IMG/VR virus record: IMGVR_UViG_3300036401_000385
Location: 1-33,599 of that record
Strand: one strand, 5' to 3'
DNA length: 33,599 bases
Origin: a virus
Shown here: one piece after another, positions 32 to 27,247 of the stretch
Layout: each line of letters begins with the position of its first letter
How positions within the stretch are numbered: the stretch's first letter is position 1
Program-made: the position numbers and the translations under genes
The notes under the pieces: generated by a model
The model's database searches: none
Told to the model about the DNA's origin: nothing
The model's input: the letters and a program-made list of their open reading frames with translations, nothing else

Positions 32-49
32 GGGGGGAGGATAGCCTTG
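32..49 (+). promoter_or_regulatory. Ribosome binding site deciding a TTG start
   Basis: The run GGGGGGAGG (32-40) lies 6 bases before TTG at 47. It has no suitable spacing to the upstream TTG at 11. This places translation start at 47. Confidence 0.6.
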
Positions 50-853
50 CCTACTGCTCTTAAACAGGCGGATGCTACGCTAGGGAGCCTGCCAGAGCCA
101 CCCGAAGGCCTTGCCCCCTCTTACACCACCATCCCCCTGGAGACTGTAGCCCTGGGGCTCCTAAAGCCCCATCCCCGGAACTACCGCCAGCACCCGCCCG
201 ACCAGCTGCTCCATATCATCCGCTCCATCGAGGAGCATGGCGTCTACCGCAACATCGTCGTGGCCGAGGATTACACCATCCTGGCGGGCCACGGCGTCGT
301 CAAGGCGCTGCGCCAGATGGGGCGTGCCGAGGCCTGCGTCTACCGCCTGATGATCTCACCGGATTCCGTCCAGGCATTGAAGCTGCTCACCGGCGACAAC
401 GAGATCGGCCACCTCGCCGAAGTAGACGACCGCCTCTTCACCGAACTGCTCAAGGAAGTAAAGGACCTCGGGGAGCTTGTGGGCACGGGCTACGACGAGA
501 TGATGCTGGCGAACCTGCTCTACGTCACGGCCCCACCGGGCGGTACGGACGCGGATCAGGCCGCGCAGTGGGCCGAGGCAGGAATGCCGGAATTCGCTAA
601 CGGCGCATTGCCTCTCAAGCTGATCGTAAGTTTCCGGACGCAGGCCGACCGCATAGCCTTCGCCGATCAGTTCGGGCTGCGGATTCTCAAGCGGGAAGCG
701 GCGACCTGGGTTACATGGTGGCCGTACCGCGAACAGGAAGATACCTCGGCCTTGCGTTTCGATTCGGCAGAACAAACCAGGATGCCTGCGGGCGGCAGTA
801 ACCACCGGATACCGGCTGGTGAAGGCCAAGCGCCGCCCACCTCGACCCAATGA
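47..853 (+). CDS. ParB/Srx N-terminal domain protein
   Basis: A 268-residue protein that I assign to the ParB-N (ParB/Srx fold) family. The domain covers about residues 26-100: it contains PHPRNYRQHP (41-50), a QLLHIIRSIEEHG helix, and AGHG (80-83), which resembles the nucleotide-binding loop of this fold. The C-terminal part is not recognised. The reading frame is open to TTG at 11, but TTG at 47 is preferred because GGGAGG (35-40) lies 6 bases before it. The gene overlaps the next one by 4 bases (ATGA), so the two are probably translated together. ParB-N proteins next to TET-associated glycosyltransferases are known from phages that modify their DNA bases, which suggests a role in DNA modification or DNA handling. 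The catalytic activity, if any, cannot be read from the sequence. Because the window starts here, an upstream start outside it is possible but less likely. Confidence 0.75.
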   Translation: MPTALKQADATLGSLPEPPEGLAPSYTTIPLETVALGLLKPHPRNYRQHPPDQLLHIIRSIEEHGVYRNIVVAEDYTILAGHGVVKALRQMGRAEACVYRLMISPDSVQALKLLTGDNEIGHLAEVDDRLFTELLKEVKDLGELVGTGYDEMMLANLLYVTAPPGGTDADQAAQWAEAGMPEFANGALPLKLIVSFRTQADRIAFADQFGLRILKREAATWVTWWPYREQEDTSALRFDSAEQTRMPAGGSNHRIPAGEGQAPPTSTQ

Positions 854-1731
854 GCCCGCGCTACCCCATCTACGTCATTAGCAAGGGCCGCGCTGATAAC
901 TGCCTGACGGCCAAGTTCCTGGTGCGCGACGATACGCCCTTCTCGCTCGTCATCGAGCCGCAGGAGGAAGCGAAGTACGCTCATGCCTTCGGCGGCGACG
1001 TGCTGCGTATCTTACCCTTCAGTAACCTCGGCCTCGGTTCCATCCCCGCCCGCAACTGGGTGTGGGAGGATTCCAGGGCGCGCGGCTGCGAGCGGCACTG
1101 GATCATTGACGACAACATATACGACGTCGAGTTCCGCTATCAGGGCAAACGGATCGTGTGCAATTCCGGCCCCGCCCTGGCCGCCGTCGAAGACTTCGTG
1201 GATCGCTATGAGAATATCGCCATCGGCGGGCTAAACTATCACATGTTCGCGCCCGCTGGCCGCAACATCCCCCCGTTCGTCGTCAACTGCCACGTTTACT
1301 CCTGCCTGCTTATCCGCAACGATCTCCCCTACCGCTGGCGCGGACGCTATAACGAAGACACCGACCTCTGTCTCCAGGTGCTCTCGGGCAGCTGGTGTAC
1401 GGTGCTGACGAATGCGTTTCTGATCCACAAGGTTCCCACGATGAAGATGAAGGGCGGTAACACGGCCGAACTCTACCAGGACAACGGGCGATTGAAGATG
1501 GCGCGGTCGCTCGAGCGCATGTGGCCCGGCGTCGTGGAAACGCACCGCAGATTCCACCGTGCGCAGCACGTCATCAAGGACGCCTGGGGGCGGTTTAATA
1601 CGCCGCTGAAACTCAGAGCTGACGCCCCGCCCGCCGATCCCGCCAAGCATGCGCTGGCCTTGCAGCAGGTGAAGGGCATCAAGAGTGAAAGTCTGCGGCA
1701 GTGGTACGCCGCACAACAGGTGAGCGTATGA
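850..1731 (+). CDS. TET-associated-type DNA glycosyltransferase (TAGT family)
   Basis: A 293-residue GT-A-type glycosyltransferase matching, from memory, the TET-associated glycosyltransferase family of phages. These enzymes are thought to add sugars to oxidised 5-methylcytosine in phage DNA. Visible family features are the SKGR segment at the N-terminus (11-14), GSIPARNWVW (63-72), the acidic metal-binding motif WIIDDN (84-89), RGRYNEDTDL (164-173) and MKGGNT (200-205). The length fits the family. The start ATG overlaps the ParB-N gene stop by 4 bases, and its stop overlaps the small terminase start by 4 bases. The gene therefore sits in the late packaging operon, where modification would act on DNA before packaging. 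No TET/JBP dioxygenase or cytosine methyltransferase is visible in the window, so the source of its substrate is open. The identity is fairly secure. The exact sugar and base are unknown. Confidence 0.85.
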   Translation: MSPRYPIYVISKGRADNCLTAKFLVRDDTPFSLVIEPQEEAKYAHAFGGDVLRILPFSNLGLGSIPARNWVWEDSRARGCERHWIIDDNIYDVEFRYQGKRIVCNSGPALAAVEDFVDRYENIAIGGLNYHMFAPAGRNIPPFVVNCHVYSCLLIRNDLPYRWRGRYNEDTDLCLQVLSGSWCTVLTNAFLIHKVPTMKMKGGNTAELYQDNGRLKMARSLERMWPGVVETHRRFHRAQHVIKDAWGRFNTPLKLRADAPPADPAKHALALQQVKGIKSESLRQWYAAQQVSV

Positions 1732-2192
1732 CGGGACGCCCGCCCGTGCCGACTGTCCTGAAGGTCGTGCGCGGAAACCCAGGACACCGCAAACTGAACA
1801 AGAACGAGCCGAAGCCCGTCGGTGATCTGAAGGAACCGCCCGCACATTTCGACGAGGAACTGCGCGAGGTGTGGAACTACGCCATCGAGAACGCGCCCAA
1901 GGGGCTGTTAAAAAAGATCGACTCCGCGGTGCTCGAAACCTGGGTGACGTCGCACGTCCTGCACCGCAAGGCGATAGCCCAGGTGCGGCTGCACGGCATG
2001 CTGGTCAAGCCGCCGAAGAGCGATATCCCGGTCCAGTCGCCCTGGCTGCCCATCGTGAACAAGCAAGCCTTCATCATGCTGCGGGCCGTGGACCACCTGG
2101 GATTCTCGCCGGCAAGCCGCACGCGGATCGCCATCGGTGACGGCGTGCCCAGTACGGCAGGCGGATGGGGCGAGATCGCCGACGCCGGATAA
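1728..2192 (+). CDS. terS: Terminase small subunit (P27 family)
   Basis: A 154-residue protein of the phage P27-type small terminase family, which recognises phage DNA and presents it to the large subunit. The N-terminus has the typical pattern of a short basic start followed by GRPP..P, LKVVRGNPG.R, LN.NEP.P. Helical segments follow, with LVKPPKSDIPVQSPWLPIVNK-like and FSPASRTRIA elements that are usual near the C-terminus of the family. The ATG at 1728 overlaps the glycosyltransferase stop (ATGA). An in-frame upstream start exists at 1701 but would lie within the previous gene and lacks support. The large terminase follows after 6 bases, the usual order. Confidence 0.9.
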   Translation: MTGRPPVPTVLKVVRGNPGHRKLNKNEPKPVGDLKEPPAHFDEELREVWNYAIENAPKGLLKKIDSAVLETWVTSHVLHRKAIAQVRLHGMLVKPPKSDIPVQSPWLPIVNKQAFIMLRAVDHLGFSPASRTRIAIGDGVPSTAGGWGEIADAG

Positions 2193-2198
2193 ACTCAC

Positions 2199-3905
2199 AT
2201 GCCAACCCTCGCTAAAACGTGCCCCAACGTGGCGCGGGGGACGGAGTACGCCCAGGCCGTCGTAAAGGGCAGCGTGCTGGCCTGTACCTGGGTGCGCCTC
2301 GCCTGCCAGCGGCATCTAGAAGACCTGGACCGCTGGCAGGCGAAGGACTCGCCCTTCTACTTCGACCAGAAGGCCGCCGAGCGCGTGCTCGAAGTAGTCC
2401 AACTCTTTCCGCACATCCACGGGCACTGGGCGAAACAGCAGATGCGGATCACGCTCGAAGGTTGGCAGTGCTTTATCGTGATGTGCGTCTTTGGCTGGAA
2501 GGCCAGATCCACCGGGGCGCGGCGTTTCCGCGTAGCCTATATCGAAGTACCCAGGAAGAACGCCAAGAGTACCCTGACCAGCGCCATCGGGCTTTATCTG
2601 CTGGCCTGCGACGGCGAGCACGGCGGGCATATCGTCAGCGCGGCCAACACGCAGAACCAGGCCAAACTTTTATTCACCGACGCGCAGTGGATGGCACGCA
2701 AGGAGGTGGGCTTCCGCGCCCGCTTCAGCGTGGAAGTCCTGGCGCACACCATCGTGCAGATGGAGACGCAGTCCAAGTTCGAGGCCTTGAGCGCGGAGCA
2801 CTCGAACCTGGACGGGCTGAATCTTCACGGGGCGCTGATCGACGAGTTGCACGCCCACCCCACGCGCGGCCTGTGGGACGTGCTCGCAACGGCTACGGGC
2901 TCGCGTATCCAGCCGCTCATCTGGGCCATCACTACGGCGGGCCTAAACCGCGCCAGCGTGTGCTACGACCAGCACAACTATGTGATCGATATCCTCAGCA
3001 AGCGGGCCGAGGACGACGCCTACTTCGGCATCATCTACACCACCGATGACGGCGACGATCCGTGGGCCGAGACCACCTGGACGAAGGCCAACCCCAACTA
3101 CGGCGTGAGCGTGCGCCCGGAAGGGTTGAAGCTGGACGCCAAACGCGCCATGCAGATGCCGAGCGAGCAGGCCTCGTTTCTGACGAAGCACTTGAATGTG
3201 TGGATCAACGCGGCGATGATGTGGCTGCCTGCCGGTGCCTGGGACAAGTGCGGCGACGGGGCGCTCGACATCGAAGACTTCGCCGGCGAGGCCTGTTACC
3301 TCGGCATCGACCTTGCGCTGCGCAGTGATATGGCGGCGCTGGTGGTTGCTTTCCCGCCTACGGAGGCGCGGCCGCACTGGGTCGTCTTCGGCTTCTACTA
3401 CCTGCCAGAGGAGACCGTCAGCCGCGCCGAGAACGCTCACTATCAGGCCTGGGAAACCATGGGCCGACTCACCACCACGCCGGGGAATGTCACCGACTTC
3501 GACTACATCCTCAACGCGTTGGCCGATCTGTGCACGCGCTTCGGCGTCCGCGAGATTGCGCTCGATCCGTTCGACGCGGGTCCACTGCTGGTGAATATTG
3601 AAAAGGCGGGCCTGCCCAAGCCTGTTGAGGTCCGCCAGACCGCGCCGAACATGCACCCGGCGATGGTGGAGCTCGAAGGCCTCGTCCTGTCGAAGAAGAT
3701 CCGCCACGACGCCAACCCGATTCTCTCCTGGATGTTCTCCAACGTGAAGGTGGAAAAGTCGGGCGATCTGATGAAGCCGACCAAGGATGGCGACGAGAAA
3801 AAAATTGATGGCGTGGTCTGCCTGCTGATGTGTCTAAACCGCTGGATGAAACAGCAGCCGGGCGAGAAGCCCGACTACGAGAACCGAGGCTTATGGGCAA
3901 TCTGA
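2199..3905 (+). CDS. terL: Terminase large subunit (Terminase_1 / HK97-like)
   Basis: A 568-residue packaging motor ATPase and nuclease. The ATPase part has a Walker A-type segment PRKNAKST (118-125) in the form typical of this family, and a Walker B segment ALIDELH (212-218). The C-terminal RNase H-like nuclease shows LGIDLALRSD (368-377), with acidic residues at 371 and 377, and IALDPFDAG (453-461) with D456. A further Asp near 544, in KKIDGV, fits the third metal ligand. Length and motif order fit an intact enzyme. It would cut and pump DNA through the portal encoded next. Its 3' end overlaps the portal start by 13 bases. Confidence 0.95.
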   Translation: MPTLAKTCPNVARGTEYAQAVVKGSVLACTWVRLACQRHLEDLDRWQAKDSPFYFDQKAAERVLEVVQLFPHIHGHWAKQQMRITLEGWQCFIVMCVFGWKARSTGARRFRVAYIEVPRKNAKSTLTSAIGLYLLACDGEHGGHIVSAANTQNQAKLLFTDAQWMARKEVGFRARFSVEVLAHTIVQMETQSKFEALSAEHSNLDGLNLHGALIDELHAHPTRGLWDVLATATGSRIQPLIWAITTAGLNRASVCYDQHNYVIDILSKRAEDDAYFGIIYTTDDGDDPWAETTWTKANPNYGVSVRPEGLKLDAKRAMQMPSEQASFLTKHLNVWINAAMMWLPAGAWDKCGDGALDIEDFAGEACYLGIDLALRSDMAALVVAFPPTEARPHWVVFGFYYLPEETVSRAENAHYQAWETMGRLTTTPGNVTDFDYILNALADLCTRFGVREIALDPFDAGPLLVNIEKAGLPKPVEVRQTAPNMHPAMVELEGLVLSKKIRHDANPILSWMFSNVKVEKSGDLMKPTKDGDEKKIDGVVCLLMCLNRWMKQQPGEKPDYENRGLWAI

Positions 3906-5775: not shown

Positions 5776-7104
5776 ATGGCAACGACAACCCCGGATAAAG
5801 AAGACCTGGAACTGATTCGCCAGTTGCGGGTGGAGTGGAAAAAGGATTTCGACGCCGCGCTGGTGCAGGCCAAGACGGATGGCTTTGTGGACCCCGAGGC
5901 CCGCAGTAAAGTTACCAAGGTGGAAACCGAACTCAATACCAAAACAGACGCGGTAATTGCAGCGACCAACAAACGCTGCGACGAACTGGAAACTAAGGTA
6001 AAGCTGATCGGTGAGCGCGGCTCGCGGCCACCCGGCGCAGGCGATGACGGTTCGCTGATTAAAAGCGTCGGCACCAAGTTCGTGGAGAGCGAGCAGTTCA
6101 AGAACTGCCAGTGGAGCGGCCGCTTTCAGGTCCAGGCGGGTCTCACCAAAACGCGCATCAAAGATATCCTGGCCCGCAAGGCGGTAACGACCATCGCCGA
6201 GGGCGGCGCCACCACGATCACCCCGCCCGTGGGCGCGTATCCGATCTTCCCCCGTCGCGTGGGCCTGATCTCGCAGCAGTACGCACCGCTCACCATGCGT
6301 GATCTGGTAGACGTAATTCCGCTTGACGGCACCAACGCGGTCGAGTACGTGACGGAAAGCTGGACGAACGCCGCTGACTACCAGATCCTGGAAGGCGACA
6401 AGAAAGCCCAGTCAGGGGTGACCTATACCGATAACACCGCAGTGGTGCGCACTATCGCGCACTACGTGAAGGTGTCGCGGCAGATGGTGTCGGACGTGTC
6501 CTTCATCATCGCTACCATCGAAAACCGCCTTGCTCTCTTCGTGCTTCTCAAAGAAGACGCCGAGATCCTGTTCGGCAGCAACGCGGCGGGCCACCTGTGG
6601 GGAATTATGCCCCAGGCCACGGCAGCTGCAGTCTACTATCCGGGGCCAGCGCCGACGACCGATACTATGCTCGACCAGTTGAATGCGGCCGAGACATACA
6701 TCGAGAACCAGTTTTATTTCCCGACTGCTTTCGTCCTGAACCCGACTAACTGGTTTCACATCGAAAGTCTGAAGACGACCTTCGGCCAATACCTGCTCCC
6801 GACCTCGCCGCTGAGCGAAGGACCACCCCGCGTGTGGGGCCTGCCGGTGATTACCACGCCCGCCATGACGTTGAACGACTACCTGTGCGGTGCCTTCCCC
6901 GGTAATGCGGCGTTGTTCGACCGCGAGACGGTCAACGTGGAAATGGCCTTCCAGAACGAGGACGACTTCGTGCGTAACTTAGTCACGCTGCGCGCCGAGG
7001 AGCGCGTTGCCTTTGCGGTGTTCGTCCCCAAGGCCTTCGCCAAGGGTCCGTTCGTTACTCCCGCAGTGGGGCTTGAAAGCGAACCGGTGCGGAAGGGCAA
7101 ATGA
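5776..7104 (+). CDS. Major capsid protein (HK97 fold) with N-terminal scaffold segment
   Basis: A 442-residue HK97-fold capsid protein. Residues 1-80 are rich in charged and helical sequence and resemble the delta/scaffold domain that the protease removes. The mature part starts near the GSRPPGAG linker. Typical features are the G.H/L.GI segment after the E-loop and P domains, NPTNW, a LWG/VWGLPV segment near residue 352, and the C-terminal block QNEDDFVRNLVTLRAEERVA, followed by a P.AFAKG.F end. The start is immediately after the protease stop codon. A second, shorter HK97-like protein at 7919-8845 shares this C-terminal block almost exactly, so there are two capsid-like genes. Confidence 0.93.
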   Translation: MATTTPDKEDLELIRQLRVEWKKDFDAALVQAKTDGFVDPEARSKVTKVETELNTKTDAVIAATNKRCDELETKVKLIGERGSRPPGAGDDGSLIKSVGTKFVESEQFKNCQWSGRFQVQAGLTKTRIKDILARKAVTTIAEGGATTITPPVGAYPIFPRRVGLISQQYAPLTMRDLVDVIPLDGTNAVEYVTESWTNAADYQILEGDKKAQSGVTYTDNTAVVRTIAHYVKVSRQMVSDVSFIIATIENRLALFVLLKEDAEILFGSNAAGHLWGIMPQATAAAVYYPGPAPTTDTMLDQLNAAETYIENQFYFPTAFVLNPTNWFHIESLKTTFGQYLLPTSPLSEGPPRVWGLPVITTPAMTLNDYLCGAFPGNAALFDRETVNVEMAFQNEDDFVRNLVTLRAEERVAFAVFVPKAFAKGPFVTPAVGLESEPVRKGK

Positions 7105-7905: not shown

Positions 7906-7918
7906 ATTGGAGGACCGT

Positions 7919-8845
7919 ATGAAACTCTCACCCGGAGCGCAGATCACCAACGCGCTGTTGGAACACCCCGAGCGCCGGCGCTTTTCGCTCAGCCTGGAAC
8001 GTAAGGCGGGGCCGATTCTCGTCTATCCTTCGACTGCCGAGACGGTCCCCGCCGTTGCCCCGGGCCCGACGATCCCCTATCGGCTGCGTTCCCTGATCGC
8101 GCCAGGGACGACGGTTGGTTCCGGTATTCTCTACGCGCGGGAGACTTCCTTCACATCGAGTCCTATCGTGCCAACCGCCGCAGGCGGACTGAAGCCCGCT
8201 GCCGATCTCACCTATGACATCCAGCTACAGCCTGTCGTCACCGTGCCCGCGTATCTCAAGATGCCCGCGCAGTACTGGGAAGACTTCAGCATGTTTCAAA
8301 GCTGGATCGACGCGCGGATGATGTACGGGCTGGCCGAGGCCGAGGAAAAGCAGCTGCTCAACGGCAACGGCGTTGCTCCGAACCTGCAGGGATTCATGCT
8401 GGTTGCCATCGCGGTAACGAGCGTGGCGGGCAGCGGCGGCGTGGCCCTGCTGGATAACGTGGCGGCGGGTATCGGCGCATTGTACACGCGGGGGTATATC
8501 GCCACGGGCATCGTGCTCAACCCCGGCGACTGGGGCGCGGCGCTGCAGATTAAGTCCACCGGGGGCGGCTACCTGATCGGCGCGCCGGGGCTGATTACCA
8601 ACCCGCTCAGCCTGTGGGGAATTCCCGTCGTGCTCAGCAAGGCTATGGCGAGCGGCAACTATCTGGTCGGGCAGTTCGACCCCTATAGCCAGATCTTCGA
8701 CCGCGACGACGCCGCGCTGGAAGTGGCCGATCAGAACGAGGACGACTTCGTGCGCAATCTGGTGACGGTCCGCGCCGAGGAGCGGCTGGCCTCCGCCATC
8801 TATCAGCCTGCGGCCTTTGCCAAGGGCACCTTCACCATGCCGTAA
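7919..8845 (+). CDS. Second HK97-fold capsid-like protein
   Basis: A 308-residue protein with the later features of an HK97 capsid subunit: a YWEDF...I..RM...L..AEEKQLLNG helix, LNPGDW, a LWGIPV segment, and a C-terminal block QNEDDFVRNLVTVRAEERLA then P.AFAKG.F. That block is nearly identical to the end of the first capsid protein (5776-7104). It lacks the N-terminal scaffold region. ATG at 7919 is chosen because GGAGGA (7909-7914) lies 4 bases before it; the TTG at 7907 overlaps that site. It sits between connector genes rather than next to the protease. It may be a second coat subunit, a decoration or vertex protein, or a recombination relic. The rest of the sequence is clearly diverged, so it is not a recent copy. 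Confidence 0.85.
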   Translation: MKLSPGAQITNALLEHPERRRFSLSLERKAGPILVYPSTAETVPAVAPGPTIPYRLRSLIAPGTTVGSGILYARETSFTSSPIVPTAAGGLKPAADLTYDIQLQPVVTVPAYLKMPAQYWEDFSMFQSWIDARMMYGLAEAEEKQLLNGNGVAPNLQGFMLVAIAVTSVAGSGGVALLDNVAAGIGALYTRGYIATGIVLNPGDWGAALQIKSTGGGYLIGAPGLITNPLSLWGIPVVLSKAMASGNYLVGQFDPYSQIFDRDDAALEVADQNEDDFVRNLVTVRAEERLASAIYQPAAFAKGTFTMP

Positions 8846-15000: not shown

Positions 15001-15319
15001 AGAGATTGCCTGGGGCGCGAACACCAAGGCCACAGAGAACCTGCGGGACCTGTTCAAGGACTGGAGCAACCCGGCCCTGGCAGCCATGCAGGGGATTCAG
15101 CAGGCTGTGGAAGGGACCGCGCCGTATATCGCCGATACCAAGGGTGTGATGGAAAACGTCAGGGACCTGACGGGTGAGTTGGTAGACGTGACCAGAAAAG
15201 GCCTGGAGTCGCTCAACGTCAACGTGACCGCGACGGGCGTCACCACCGTAGAGGCCGCGCGAAAGCTGGGCGACCAGATCGCAGCCAACCTTGCAAGGCA
15301 ACTGGTGCAGACCTCTTGA
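12041..15319 (+). CDS. Tape measure protein
   Basis: A 1092-residue protein, the longest in the window, just after the chaperone pair. It sets tail length and is packed inside the tube. The N-terminal 230 residues (LLDSKQWLTGMKEVEGS, LSATSPFAFPELAESAKRM, LGQGAEPMRVMKQL) match tape measure N-terminal domains. About residues 290-345 are hydrophobic and Ala/Gly/Ile rich, likely a membrane-interacting stretch. Residues 355-435 hold Trp-rich degenerate repeats (IWGVTWGEIKAAL, IWDSI, IWDTIKGAWDVIW). A long helical region follows, then a Gly-rich segment and a C-terminal domain. As a rough rule of about 1.5 angstrom per residue, the tail would be some 150-160 nm long. The stop overlaps the next gene's TTG start. 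Confidence 0.92.
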   Translation: MADLGDMIARLLLDSKQWLTGMKEVEGSTAASAAAIEGSLGMVGESVKELGKGLAELGLAEGIKHFAEACIEASDDMGRLKTAMVNLKGDTQNVEEFLEHIHELSATSPFAFPELAESAKRMVMLGQSLDQTQETLSAIVETGTALKLTGAQVTGIADAMSKLGQGAEPMRVMKQLVNEGIPAWQMLAQEMGTNIPDAQAKVKSGVISSQQLFESLTKAMDENKDKAAGWADTWRGAMKGLDTATEAAMRNVGDDIKKALNEVAAPALKEVAQLVEKLGEWWKGLPTPVKDAAIAFGAAATAIAAIGGAIAIIGIALEALGTSFLAPVAAIAVLVAALVGVGVWIGEHWGAISDILTHAWDEIEKIWGVTWGEIKAALGIIWDSITAAGKAVFDTYVAVYSVIWDTIKGAWDVIWKAIKLVLTVAWGEIKAGLSIFDAIATYLLAFWEPIKAKFQEVWGFISSNLTSVWGKLAATFGVVQKAAADVTTELTKHVEVHEKLKPKVDDTANATGGLGTQASTLTDKFIALRDKTAILWAEAAILNSKQQALIQTVAKNREEAALMAAAHQTLYDKFMAVIPPIQDTTKAFDALQLAGVKVVTQFGAIGGSVAVAEAALKQLNITSTAAAQKTAEHTTELVNQVTAAGTMMSAYDQLMTKQADLKAQIELLIRTDGDHSAKLAQLQQDLKDTTTQIGAMATSTTDAYHQMGLNTADDIDKIIAKDRERWQTAISLSNDENNGNPALVRQAHAAELQMLKDYDQMGIDMSASQKQRMEDLEKELGKHHDTQREAWKAFEKDVKKDFDDTFTAMEDLLITGDGSFKDIMTKLWQGLAKDALDLFLAPLKKSIEDFMATTIKNLLSGDGLGGISTALSNIGSKIGGLFGGGAPGGLATSGSTMGTVGQAIPGVSGAGGSAAGAATKAIGSSVTGIVGAVGGVVSAVSGVISNFQQAKMETTLNAIEHNTRYTMMYVGERADGGILGVLFKIDEEIAWGANTKATENLRDLFKDWSNPALAAMQGIQQAVEGTAPYIADTKGVMENVRDLTGELVDVTRKGLESLNVNVTATGVTTVEAARKLGDQIAANLARQLVQTS

Positions 15320-17883
15320 ATGCCATCATCAAGCTGAACGGTGAAGATGTGACGGCCAGCTGCCTGCTGGCGGCTACGCGCATCAGCTACGACTCATCGC
15401 GGCGTATCACTACTGCATCTATCACGGTCATGGGCCGCACCCTGAACCGGATCTCGCGCTACGACTACGCGCACTATGGCCAGGACTTCTACAGCATCGG
15501 CATCGGCGAGCTTTACCTGTGCACCATCCTGGATGGGCGCGACGGCACGACCAAGCTGTTCGAAGGCCAGATCTTCAGCTTAACGCTGACGCAGACTGAC
15601 GTGATCGGCGCCGAAGTCTTTTACGCCTGCGACCTGAACGACTATGCGTCCTGGCTGGATCGCTCGGTGTGCTGGGGCGGGTACACGCTCACCCTGCCGG
15701 CGAGTGATGCCGCCATCATCCAGGGGCTGGTGGGCCACTTCTGCACGCGCATCGACTCCGCAACTGACATAGCCACCGTGGTGCCTACCGTGCAGGCATA
15801 CGACTGGAAGGGGAAAACCACCCGGCAAGTGCTGGACGATATGGCCGCGCTCGCGGGTGCCGAATGGAACGTGGACTTCAACGCGGTGCTGCATTACCGG
15901 CTGGCGTCCAATGCCCCGGTGGCGCCGTTCGCACTTTCCACTTCCCACGATGACGTCACCAGCTTCCCGGTAAAGGTGACCAGCTACAAGCAGGACTTCA
16001 ATAACCCGGTGAACCGCTGCTATGTCAGGGGAGCCACCGACCCGGCGAGCGGCGTCTTCATCGAGGCCAGTTACTCTGACCCTGTGTCCGTCGGTAAGTA
16101 CGGCGAGTACGCGTACTCGGTGGTGGACGATCAGATCACGACTTCCTGGGATGCCTCGCTCAGGGCCAAGAGCGTGGTGCTGCGGTATGCCTACCCGGTG
16201 GAGTCTGGCAACTTCACCATCTGGGCCAAGGATGGCCTGCAGGTGGGCCAGCAGGTAAACATCACCGAGGATGCCCTGGGCATCAGCGGCTGGTACATTA
16301 TCCGCTCCCTGACCATGCAGTGGGTGAGCAAGAGCGACGTGCAGTATGATGCCCAGTTCGGCGCATCCCAGCCCGACCTCGAGACTCTCCTGCGGCTGAT
16401 CGACCAGCGCACCCGCTGGAAGTCCACCACCACGCCGACAGCCAATGCAGCCCCCGGCAGCATCACCGACGCGAATATCAAGATGCCGCCAGGGCTGAGC
16501 GCGGCAGTAATCGGCAGCGTTAATGCGAACACCATCGTCGGCCAGATCCAGGCAGGCCAGATCGGCAGTGTCAGTGCCGGGGCCATCGTCGGCACCCTGA
16601 GCGCGGGCCAGATCTCTAGCGTAAGTGCAGAAACTATCCAGGGAGTCATCACAGCAGGCCAGATCGGCAGCGTCAATGCAGTGAGCATCCAGGGCGTCAT
16701 CGTCACCAGCCAACTGGGCAACCAGATCGTGGATGACCTTGCCAAGTATGCCGCTGCCCTCCAGCCCATCCCAATGATGAGCAGCACGCCGACAGGACTG
16801 CCCAACGATAACAACCCGCCGAACTCCTGGTTCTATTACATCCCCGATGGGCACTTCTACAAGATGAATGCTGCGGGCACAAGCTGGACGCAGGATGACT
16901 CGGTGTCCGGCTCCATGCGCTTCTACCATATCGGGGCTATCAGCGCCAACCAGATCATTGGCCTCATCGTGGCCGCGCAGATCCAGAGCATCACCGCAGG
17001 CCAGATTACCGGGCAGATTTCGGCAGGCCAGATCGGCAGCGTCAACGCATCCAGCATCAGCGGCCAACTTACGGCATCCCAGATTAGCACCGTAAACGCG
17101 AGCAGCATTCAGGGGCAGGTAAGCGCGTCCCAGATTACAACTATCAATGCGAGCCAGATCACAGGAAGTATTCAGTCCACCCAGATCGGCAGCATCAATG
17201 CCGCGACTATCACTATCGGCCTGATCGGGGACAGCCAGATCGGCAGCATCTCGGGCGTCAAGATCACCCAGGGCACCATCGGTTCGGATAAGTTCACCGG
17301 GTTTTCCCTGGACGTGGGCGGCGGCAGCAATATGCCGGGGCGCATCCGTGTGTTCAACGGTTCCGGCAGCGTGGTTGCACAGATGGGCTACCTGGGGGAA
17401 GTGGGGACCTCATCCTATGGCGGCTGGTTCCAGCTATTCGGCGCGGGTGGCACCAGCTATTCCAATGCCAGCATGTTCACCAATGCGGCCGGCAGCCTGT
17501 TTCTGCGCAATGCCGACGTGAGCATCAGTGCCAGCGGCTTCCAGATCTTCACCAGCCCGTCCACCTTCGACACCACCTACTCATCGCTGGCGGTTAAGGT
17601 GAGCGGCCCCGGCGGCGACCTATCCAGCTTTATCTCGCGCGGCTTTTTGATCTATAACGGCGGCACCCTGCTCGGCGGCATCGTGCGTGACCCTTCGAAC
17701 GCCAGCAACCTGCAAGGTATCTTCTACAACTCCAGCCACTCTCTTGCCATCCTGATTGATGGCTACACAGGCACCATCAGGGCGGCAGGCTTCCAGGTGG
17801 GCAGTAATCCAGGCTTCAACGGGCAGGTTCCCGCAGGCCACGCAATCAACGTTTCAGGAGGTTTAATTACAGGCTATGTCTAA
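15316..17883 (+). CDS. Tail-tip / baseplate protein with 17-residue repeats
   Basis: An 855-residue protein. Residues 1-370 resemble a tail hub (gp27/J-like N-terminal part): beta-rich sequence with LFEGQIFSLTLTQ, TTRQVLDDMAALAGAEWNVDF and a long beta region. Two blocks of a 17-residue repeat of the type IGSVNA..I.G.I.AGQ follow, at about residues 399-466 (4 copies) and 539-659 (7 looser copies). Between them lies a domain of about 72 residues with a WFYYIPDGHFYKM pattern. The repeats should form a left-handed or triple beta-helix shaft. The rest is a Gly/Ser-rich fibre-like region. TTG at 15316 overlaps the tape measure stop (TTGA). No strong ribosome binding site is seen, so start depends on coupling. 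Confidence 0.78.
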   Translation: MNAIIKLNGEDVTASCLLAATRISYDSSRRITTASITVMGRTLNRISRYDYAHYGQDFYSIGIGELYLCTILDGRDGTTKLFEGQIFSLTLTQTDVIGAEVFYACDLNDYASWLDRSVCWGGYTLTLPASDAAIIQGLVGHFCTRIDSATDIATVVPTVQAYDWKGKTTRQVLDDMAALAGAEWNVDFNAVLHYRLASNAPVAPFALSTSHDDVTSFPVKVTSYKQDFNNPVNRCYVRGATDPASGVFIEASYSDPVSVGKYGEYAYSVVDDQITTSWDASLRAKSVVLRYAYPVESGNFTIWAKDGLQVGQQVNITEDALGISGWYIIRSLTMQWVSKSDVQYDAQFGASQPDLETLLRLIDQRTRWKSTTTPTANAAPGSITDANIKMPPGLSAAVIGSVNANTIVGQIQAGQIGSVSAGAIVGTLSAGQISSVSAETIQGVITAGQIGSVNAVSIQGVIVTSQLGNQIVDDLAKYAAALQPIPMMSSTPTGLPNDNNPPNSWFYYIPDGHFYKMNAAGTSWTQDDSVSGSMRFYHIGAISANQIIGLIVAAQIQSITAGQITGQISAGQIGSVNASSISGQLTASQISTVNASSIQGQVSASQITTINASQITGSIQSTQIGSINAATITIGLIGDSQIGSISGVKITQGTIGSDKFTGFSLDVGGGSNMPGRIRVFNGSGSVVAQMGYLGEVGTSSYGGWFQLFGAGGTSYSNASMFTNAAGSLFLRNADVSISASGFQIFTSPSTFDTTYSSLAVKVSGPGGDLSSFISRGFLIYNGGTLLGGIVRDPSNASNLQGIFYNSSHSLAILIDGYTGTIRAAGFQVGSNPGFNGQVPAGHAINVSGGLITGYV
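16510..17292 (+). repeat. 51-bp (17-residue) coding repeats in the tail-tip gene, two blocks
   Basis: Block one (16510-16713) has four units of 51 bases, each encoding I.SV.A..I.G.I.A.Q. Block two (16930-17292) has about seven units of 51-54 bases. A non-repeat stretch of about 216 bases separates the blocks. Confidence 0.75.
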
Positions 17884-26037: not shown

Positions 26038-26393
26038 GCGCCCGCCAGTATGAATCGCTGCGGCGGTACTTTGATGAAGCCGAACTCGCGGCCATGCACG
26101 AAGATCTCGTGCAGGCAGTCGGTGAAGTAAAGATGCTGCGCGACCAGAAGGCCGCTTATAACTCCACCGTCGGCGCCGCTATCAAGACAGCCGAGCGCAC
26201 CGTCTGGAACACGCAGGAAAAGCTGACCGTCGGGTACGAGTCGGTAGAGGTGGAAATTATCGCCGTGATGGACACGCCGCGCCCGGGCCTGAAGCGGATC
26301 GTCCGCGTGGATAGTAATGAAACCGTGCGCGAAGAACCGATGACGCCACGGGAACGGCAACAGTCGTTTGGGTTCCAGGAGCCTGAAGCGTGA
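26034..26393 (+). CDS. Hypothetical early protein, coiled-coil-like start
   Basis: A 119-residue protein with a long charged helix at residues 1-60 (YFDEAELAAMHEDLVQAVGEVKMLRDQKAAY), then beta-rich sequence (LTVGYESVEVEIIAVMDTP) and a charged tail. I recall similar phage proteins placed near recombination genes, but I know no function. It overlaps both neighbours by 4 bases. Confidence 0.65.
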   Translation: MSARQYESLRRYFDEAELAAMHEDLVQAVGEVKMLRDQKAAYNSTVGAAIKTAERTVWNTQEKLTVGYESVEVEIIAVMDTPRPGLKRIVRVDSNETVREEPMTPRERQQSFGFQEPEA

Positions 26394-27247
26394 ACGTCAC
26401 CGATGTCCCTACCGACAAAATTCAGATCGGCATGCGCCACCGTGTGGACTACGGCGACATCGAGGGGCTGGCCGCAAATATTGGCGAGATGGGTCTGCTT
26501 CAGCCGATTGGCATTGATCCGTTCTTTCATCTGATCTTTGGCTTTCGGCGGCTGTATGCCTGCAAAGATCTTCTGAAGTGGAAACAGATCCCCTGCGTCA
26601 CGCTCGACCTGGAATCCCTTCTGGCCGGCGAGTATGCGGAGAACGAATTCCGCAAGGACTTCACGGTAACCGAGCGGGTTGCCATCGGCGCGGCCATCGA
26701 GGTGGAACTGGGAAAGCGGAAGCCAGGACCGAAATCCTCCGCAAATGCGGAGCAATTATTGGCGGGCAACGCCGTCGATATCGCCGCCAAGGGCGCGGGC
26801 TTCAAAAGCGCCGAGAGTTTTGAGCGGGCCAAGACGGTGACGATGCGCGGCGCACCGGAACTGAAGGCGGCGGTCGATAAAGGCGAGATCTCAATCAGCG
26901 CGGGCGCGGACATTGCATCGCAGCCCATTAAAGCCCAGAAGCAAATCGTGGCCATGCCGAAGGCCGAGCGCCGTCAAGTTCTGGAACAGATTCGCCAGAC
27001 CAAGGCGCACAAGGAAGCCGACGAGCGGCGTGCCTATGATCTCCGCGTATATCGCGGCCTAGCAGAGAGTGTGGAGAGAATCGCCAAATACTTTGAAGAT
27101 GCGCGGGATACGTGGGCGGGCCTGGAGCGGGTGAGCGCGTTCGACTTCGCCGATAACCTGGACCTCGCCATCAAGTGTTTATCTCGGATTCAGAAGGAGC
27201 ACCCCAATGCCCGAAGACCTGGAATCGTTACGAAGACAACTCACTAG
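26390..27247 (+). CDS. ParB-like DNA-binding protein
   Basis: A 285-residue protein with a ParB N-terminal domain: PTDKIQIG..., DIEGLAANIGEMGLLQPIGI, and IFGFRRLYACKDL, where GFRR stands in for the GERR box. A helical region follows with ENEFRKDFTVTERVAIGAAIE, as in ParB/Spo0J proteins before the HTH, then a likely HTH (VDIAAKGAGFKSAESFERAKTV and AVDKGEISISAGADIAS). No ParA partner is present, so plasmid-like partition is not supported; a regulator or DNA-organising role is likelier. It overlaps the next gene by 41 bases. This is the second ParB-type protein in the window and is only distantly like the one at 47-853. Confidence 0.8.
   Translation: MNVTDVPTDKIQIGMRHRVDYGDIEGLAANIGEMGLLQPIGIDPFFHLIFGFRRLYACKDLLKWKQIPCVTLDLESLLAGEYAENEFRKDFTVTERVAIGAAIEVELGKRKPGPKSSANAEQLLAGNAVDIAAKGAGFKSAESFERAKTVTMRGAPELKAAVDKGEISISAGADIASQPIKAQKQIVAMPKAERRQVLEQIRQTKAHKEADERRAYDLRVYRGLAESVERIAKYFEDARDTWAGLERVSAFDFADNLDLAIKCLSRIQKEHPNARRPGIVTKTTH

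Follow-up and report, generated by a model that had tools for sequence, protein, structure and literature searches.

The window analysed here, an IMG/VR contig of 33,599 bases, carries a TAGT-family glycosyltransferase gene directly downstream of a gene for a ParB-like protein that ends in a WGMP module, and thus contains a ParB-WGMP-TAGT cassette. Solitary TAGTs have already been reported in phages; the ParB-WGMP partner defines among them one large class, which is independent of TET and of hydroxymethylase. With moderate confidence, we favour the explanation that the pair is a ParB/WGMP-coupled DNA glycosylation cassette, operating without TET or hydroxymethylase, of which TAGT is the catalytic half. 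The ParB-like protein, combining a nucleotide/DNA-associated ParB_N domain with WGMP, would dock or direct TAGT, which would in turn move a sugar from a host nucleotide-sugar onto phage DNA. This transfer is presumed to take place after replication, late in infection and near packaging time, and the sugar would probably protect the DNA against host nucleases. As a whole, the TET-less, ParB-linked TAGT points to a widespread and unexplained sugar-coating of phage DNA. If DNA is the acceptor, this would be a new glycosylation chemistry, one that needs neither TET nor hydroxymethylase, and the cassette a compact, portable shield against both restriction and CRISPR.

The TAGT gene and its operon

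The ORF at 850-1731 (+) is intact, with 293 codons for a product of 293 aa. It matches PF20691 (TAGT) over the entire profile (1-205 of 205; E 2.6e-47, 161.8 bits, for a curated Pfam cut-off of 27.5 bits) and PHROG 842 (5.6e-39). IMG/VR holds 353 encoded relatives, the dN/dS values of close pairs range from 0.11 to 0.32, indicating that the gene is under purifying selection, and some 60 alignment columns are invariant in 40 relatives; the ORF is therefore far from a chance reading frame. The structure model, built from the 40 relatives, reached a pLDDT of 90.6 and its best PDB fold matches are GT-A glycosyltransferases, e.g. heparosan synthase 2, LARGE1 and K4CP. The product is accordingly modelled with a GT-A fold, although it resembles the GT-A enzymes of solved structure only moderately (query TM about 0.42), which counts against the favoured explanation. 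Altogether, it is probably a DNA-decorating sugar transferase. The features of the cassette and of its operon are as follows.

47..853 (+): ParB-like partner (ORF 11-853, likely start TTG at 47), from PHROG 620, PHROG 498 and the Spo0J/ParB profile
569..763 (+): WGMP module, pattern W..aGMPEF ... F...aDR..F ... W.TWWP...eD.SaLRF, common to the N-termini of isolate TAGTs
850..1731 (+): TAGT-family (PF20691) glycosyltransferase, from Pfam, the structure model and PDB fold matches
1108..1116 (+): DDN, residues 87-89, DxD-like metal/nucleotide-sugar position, invariant in 40 relatives
1348..1365 (+): YNEDTD, residues 167-172, candidate catalytic acid/base region, invariant in 40 relatives
1728..2192 (+): terminase small subunit (PF05119 3.7e-11, PHROG 83 3.2e-29)
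2199..3905 (+): terminase large subunit (PF20441 1.4e-43, PF03354 2.1e-28)

The DDN of the window aligns with the DDN of isolate TAGTs, the DDD of Nonlabens phage P12024L and the DDT of T6, and the E-D pair of the YNEDTD region is kept in P12024L.

The stop of the ParB-like gene and the start of the TAGT gene overlap by 4 nt (ATGA), as do the TAGT stop and the start of the terminase small subunit gene, so that the three genes are probably translationally coupled. The first-pass annotation had placed an intact TAGT-type gene in the packaging operon next to a ParB-N protein, and both parts of this description hold: the PF20691 match is full, the two terminase genes follow downstream, and the neighbour is ParB-like (see below).

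Further downstream, a 75-nt stretch close to the 3' end of one capsid-like gene (6938-7012 in 5776-7104) recurs with 81% identity close to that of another (8718-8792 in 7907-8845). This repeat suggests that the gene for the major capsid protein was duplicated. Also, a 36-nt element occurs eight times, mostly with a 51-nt spacing, between 16501 and 17265, within the tail gene 15316-17883, where it encodes repeated 'GQIGSVNA'-like units.

The ParB-like partner and the WGMP module

The upstream protein consists of a ParB_N domain (with HPxNYR and ILAGHG motifs), a GTGYD helical part and the C-terminal WGMP module. Taken alone, its Pfam ParB_N match is under the cut-off (E 0.069). Its ParB-like nature is confirmed by the matches to PHROG 620 (7e-24) and to Spo0J/ParB chains (1.6e-8), and by the top fold matches of its model, which are of the ParB/Noc/Srx type. 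It also matches PHROG 498 (ParB-DNA methyltransferase; 6e-20). A second ParB-like gene (26390-27247; PHROG 12047), located in the early region of the window, is unrelated to the TAGT partner.

Among the 80 viral loci closest to the window (out of 353; common descent links part of them), 78 have a ParB-like gene upstream of TAGT on the same strand, in direct succession save for a few with one extra gene in between; in the remaining two, the C-terminus of the partner lies at the contig edge. As for the cellular contigs, the ParB/WGMP partner is present in 10 of 11 loci, and the supposed TAGT of the eleventh (L178) proved to be an ordinary GT2. The general WGMP pattern in partners is WxGMPeY...F...eDR..F...(T/S)xSxWWP...eD.sS.rF. 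Of the 7,942 ORFs from all loci, only ParB partners, TAGT fusions and one small ORF of Aeromonas phage Aeh1 carry the module. The latter ORF (L097:4897-5094, +) lies directly 3' of the Aeh1 TAGT and holds a second WGMP-like module. In locus L044, the partner has a ParB_N domain of another subtype and WGMP is kept, so that WGMP seems to be what stays constant.

A WGMP HMM was built from 79 ParB-partner C-termini. It matched the TAGT N-termini of the cultured phages Aeh1 (7e-12), Pectobacterium POP12 (1e-11), Tenacibaculum PTm1 (1e-5), Kuja (5e-5), Vibrio 1.124.O (8e-4) and Vibrio 1.076.O (1e-3). These TAGTs belong to the same subfamily as that of the window, with 38-44% identity and the same WGMP. 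Unlike in the window, the module is N-terminal on the TAGT chain itself, on which no ParB_N was detected. In the seventh cultured phage, Vibrio phage henriette 12B8, the module is directly upstream of TAGT in an interrupted frame (L098:3560-4130, +); the two parts being in different frames, the gene is left unannotated. The other isolate fusions are annotated only as hypothetical or as beta-glucosyl-HMC-alpha-glucosyltransferase. With these phages named, the product becomes directly measurable in culture.

In a beta-proteobacterial assembly (L171), ParB, WGMP and TAGT form a single ORF. An apparent ParB fusion in L048 was discarded, since what precedes TAGT there is a fortuitous open frame that no ParB profile matches. 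WGMP is absent from T6 and P12024L, and a tblastn search of the isolates with one ParB C-terminal module gave no match, i.e. the two-gene form with that module was not seen there. A tree including T6 and P12024L has saturated branches (length 10); it was used solely for the position of the isolate fusions, which fall inside the cassette clade. Since these TAGTs almost always have the ParB-like protein as a neighbour, in some cases fused to them, they are placed in a separate TET-independent class.

Genome completeness and the search for first-step enzymes

A second record, G001 (IMGVR_UViG_3300035118_000135; 41,037 bases), matches the whole window at 100% identity and extends it by 7,394 bases at its end. 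The two ends of G001 share a 37-nt overlap containing one mismatch, the 31-nt exact core occurring nowhere else in G001, and the junction puts an HNH endonuclease gene directly upstream of the ParB-like gene. The same order, HNH-ParB-TAGT-TerS-TerL, is contiguous in six relatives (L006, L008-L010, L012 and L014). From the end overlap and this gene order, G001 probably represents a complete phage of about 41.0 kb. Its genes include an integrase, a RecE-like exonuclease, a replication initiator and structural genes, and the phage is temperate.

All the absences given here rest on profile searches. As the first-pass annotation had noted, neither a TET/JBP dioxygenase (PF12851) nor a methyltransferase is visible in the window, where C5-methylases (PF00145) and N6/N4 methylases (PF01555) were also without a match. 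The searches for TET/JBP, methyltransferase and hydroxymethylase genes that it had proposed for the complete genome returned no match in G001 either. Thymidylate synthase/dCMP hydroxymethylase (PF00303) had no match in the window record (G000), in G001 or in any of 35 records, a hydroxymethylase-like match being found in the T6 control; a weak thymidylate-synthase match in Aeh1 was set aside, as it sits within gene 47. In G001, no match was found to the 2OG-Fe(II) oxygenase family PF03171 or to alpha-glucosyltransferase (PF11440; T6 control 1.1e-260). Beta-glucosyltransferase (PF09198), searched with no positive control, matched neither G001 nor any other record searched. The TET cut-off was passed by none of 47 carrier records, while the P12024L control was found at 2.8e-29; a TET-like match in G040, a phage other than that of the window, remained below the cut-off (15 bits). 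The isolates 1.124.O and 1.076.O are likewise without TET and thymidylate synthase/hydroxymethylase by profile search. In 1.124.O, a short protein (L092:18011-18661, +) located far from TAGT has a partial C5-methylase match (6.7e-7).

The known first-step enzymes are thus excluded in one probably complete genome. An incomplete genome, which had been offered as one explanation for the missing dioxygenase, is an unlikely one, G001 also being devoid of TET, C5-methylase, hydroxymethylase and alpha-glucosyltransferase, and no TET gene appeared in the 7.4 kb that it adds. That a TET or hydroxymethylase gene lies in unassembled sequence is highly improbable: IMG/VR does classify the two contigs as linear and fragmentary, with no repeats at their ends, but the 37-nt overlap, the HNH junction order of contiguous relatives, the 47 TET-negative carrier records and the two isolates all speak against it. 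The absence of TET is probably not a sequence gap.

Known systems, possible acceptors and the mobile cassette

The first-pass annotation had tied TAGT to TET/JBP systems. This holds for P12024L, a TET phage whose TAGT falls in PF20691, but is too narrow, since the T6 beta-glucosyl-HMC-alpha-glucosyltransferase, which works on bases made by a hydroxymethylase and attaches a further glucose to alpha-glucosylated hydroxymethylcytosine in DNA (PMC13216743), belongs to PF20691 as well. The scores are 37 bits for the T6 enzyme, 76 for P12024L and 162 for the window. The T6 enzyme shares with the window TAGT the GT-A fold and a full-length profile match, yet is very divergent from it and has no ParB/WGMP part; T6 also possesses a dCMP-hydroxymethylase-like gene beside TAGT and an alpha-glucosyltransferase, unlike the window phage. 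Like that of the window, the P12024L TAGT is a GT-A enzyme of compact size encoded in a small cassette. It has no ParB/WGMP part, and it is flanked by a TET immediately upstream (5.9e-27) and a methyltransferase immediately downstream, whereas the window phage has neither. A 2026 study counted TAGT without alpha- or beta-glucosyltransferase in 288 of 753 phage genomes and left the function open (PMC13216743).

The ParB_N type of the partner is tied to DNA-modifying enzymes elsewhere: such domains are often fused to phage DNA methyltransferases (PHROG 498) and occur near cytosine hypermodification enzymes, including as ParBc neighbours of CmoX (PMC12783734). The enzyme associated with ParB is a methyl- or carboxymethyltransferase in those systems, vs. 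a glycosyltransferase in the window. Taken with the precedent of the family and the DNA-handling neighbourhood of the cassette, these links make DNA the presumed acceptor of TAGT. Two points count against this reading. The 41-kb genome has no base-hydroxylating or hydroxymethylating enzyme, which leaves the known acceptor missing. Also, according to Petrov et al. (PMC2993671), many T4 relatives that lack gene 42 are probably devoid of any major cytosine modification, since DNA from some of them can be digested with restriction enzymes that do not cleave T4 DNA, and Aeh1, which has a WGMP-TAGT, is not among the gene-42 carriers of their Table 4.

Twenty-one long genomes were clustered (blastp 1e-4). 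The TAGT family was found in 20 of them, plus one where it is masked by an antisense ORF, and the ParB partner family in 16, these being the only families present in most genomes; the next one reaches 6/21. The ParB/TAGT pair is therefore the only content broadly common to 21 otherwise unrelated phages. This distribution bears on an unlikely alternative, in which TAGT acts on a hydroxylated or functionalised base made by the host or by an unrecognised phage enzyme. The characterised TAGT and T-even glycosylations do require a pre-made hydroxyl acceptor (PMC13216743, PMC13390438), first-step chemistries of the carboxymethylcytosine type were only recently discovered (PMC12783734), and the 41-kb genome encodes uncharacterised proteins, e.g. 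a 424-aa phrog_6160 protein (L083:3656-4930, -) in the 7.4 kb beyond the window, which has no Pfam or NCBIfam match. However, with no third gene recurring, a first step made by the phage would require a non-homologous enzyme in every case, unless ParB itself performs it, and a host-made acceptor would need to be shared by hosts that differ greatly. Tentatively, and with rather low confidence, it may be proposed that ParB-WGMP-TAGT alone glycosylates unmodified phage DNA, on a canonical base or at a backbone or end position, with no separate base-hydroxylating enzyme. If true, this would make it a self-sufficient mobile DNA-glycosylation system, guided by a ParB-type NTP-binding partner.

Concerning its surroundings, the 3' neighbours of the cassette are terminases of unrelated families (phrog_2, 9, 38 and 675, and PF04466), and anti-restriction proteins also occur nearby. 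The TAGT of 1.124.O is near Dam/dUTPase, and that of henriette is near a clamp loader and a DNA polymerase. Phage-encoded glycosyltransferases that glycosylate phage virions are known, and in the window as in many relatives the gene occupies a late position in the packaging operon; this position, along with the lack of a base-modifying partner, would fit an enzyme acting on a protein such as capsid, portal, terminase or the ParB partner. Such a protein acceptor nevertheless appears quite unlikely: the isolate gene lies more with replication/recombination genes than with structural ones, no capsid or tail family is common to the carriers among the 21 genomes, and the characterised family members act on DNA.

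Some cassettes contain additional genes. A nucleotide-sugar epimerase/dehydratase (extended SDR) is found near the cassette in 11 loci (L027, L029, L031, L042, L043, L047, L049, L064, L067, L068 and L070); it could not be named UDP-xylose synthase, no NCBIfam cut-off being reached, and is assigned to the family only. Combining a phage glycosyltransferase with nearby nucleotide-sugar enzymes recalls RB69-type arabinosylation (PMC6024577), where RB69 has a dedicated pyrimidine-modifying enzyme, of which none was found in the window phage. Contig L168, which has only the cassette genes in common with the window phage, was not retained as evidence for an Acidobacteriota host.

A two-gene mobile cassette with glycan-biosynthesis accessories in some loci could also modify a molecule of the host (its surface polysaccharide, the nucleotide pool or a defence protein), ParB being only a co-transferred neighbour. 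This is very unlikely, the ParB_N domains of that type being tied to DNA methylases, and the gene overlaps and ParB/WGMP-TAGT fusions arguing for a physical complex. In line with the favoured DNA glycosylation cassette, the accessory genes look like a diversification of the sugar product on one acceptor. L074 further encodes a glycosyltransferase of PF04488, and four loci (L020, L021, L054 and L068) a SAM-methyltransferase. Finally, a second TAGT lies between ParB and TAGT in five loci (L031, L033-L035 and L046) and L064 has a double-TAGT ORF; these second TAGTs suggest successive sugar additions.
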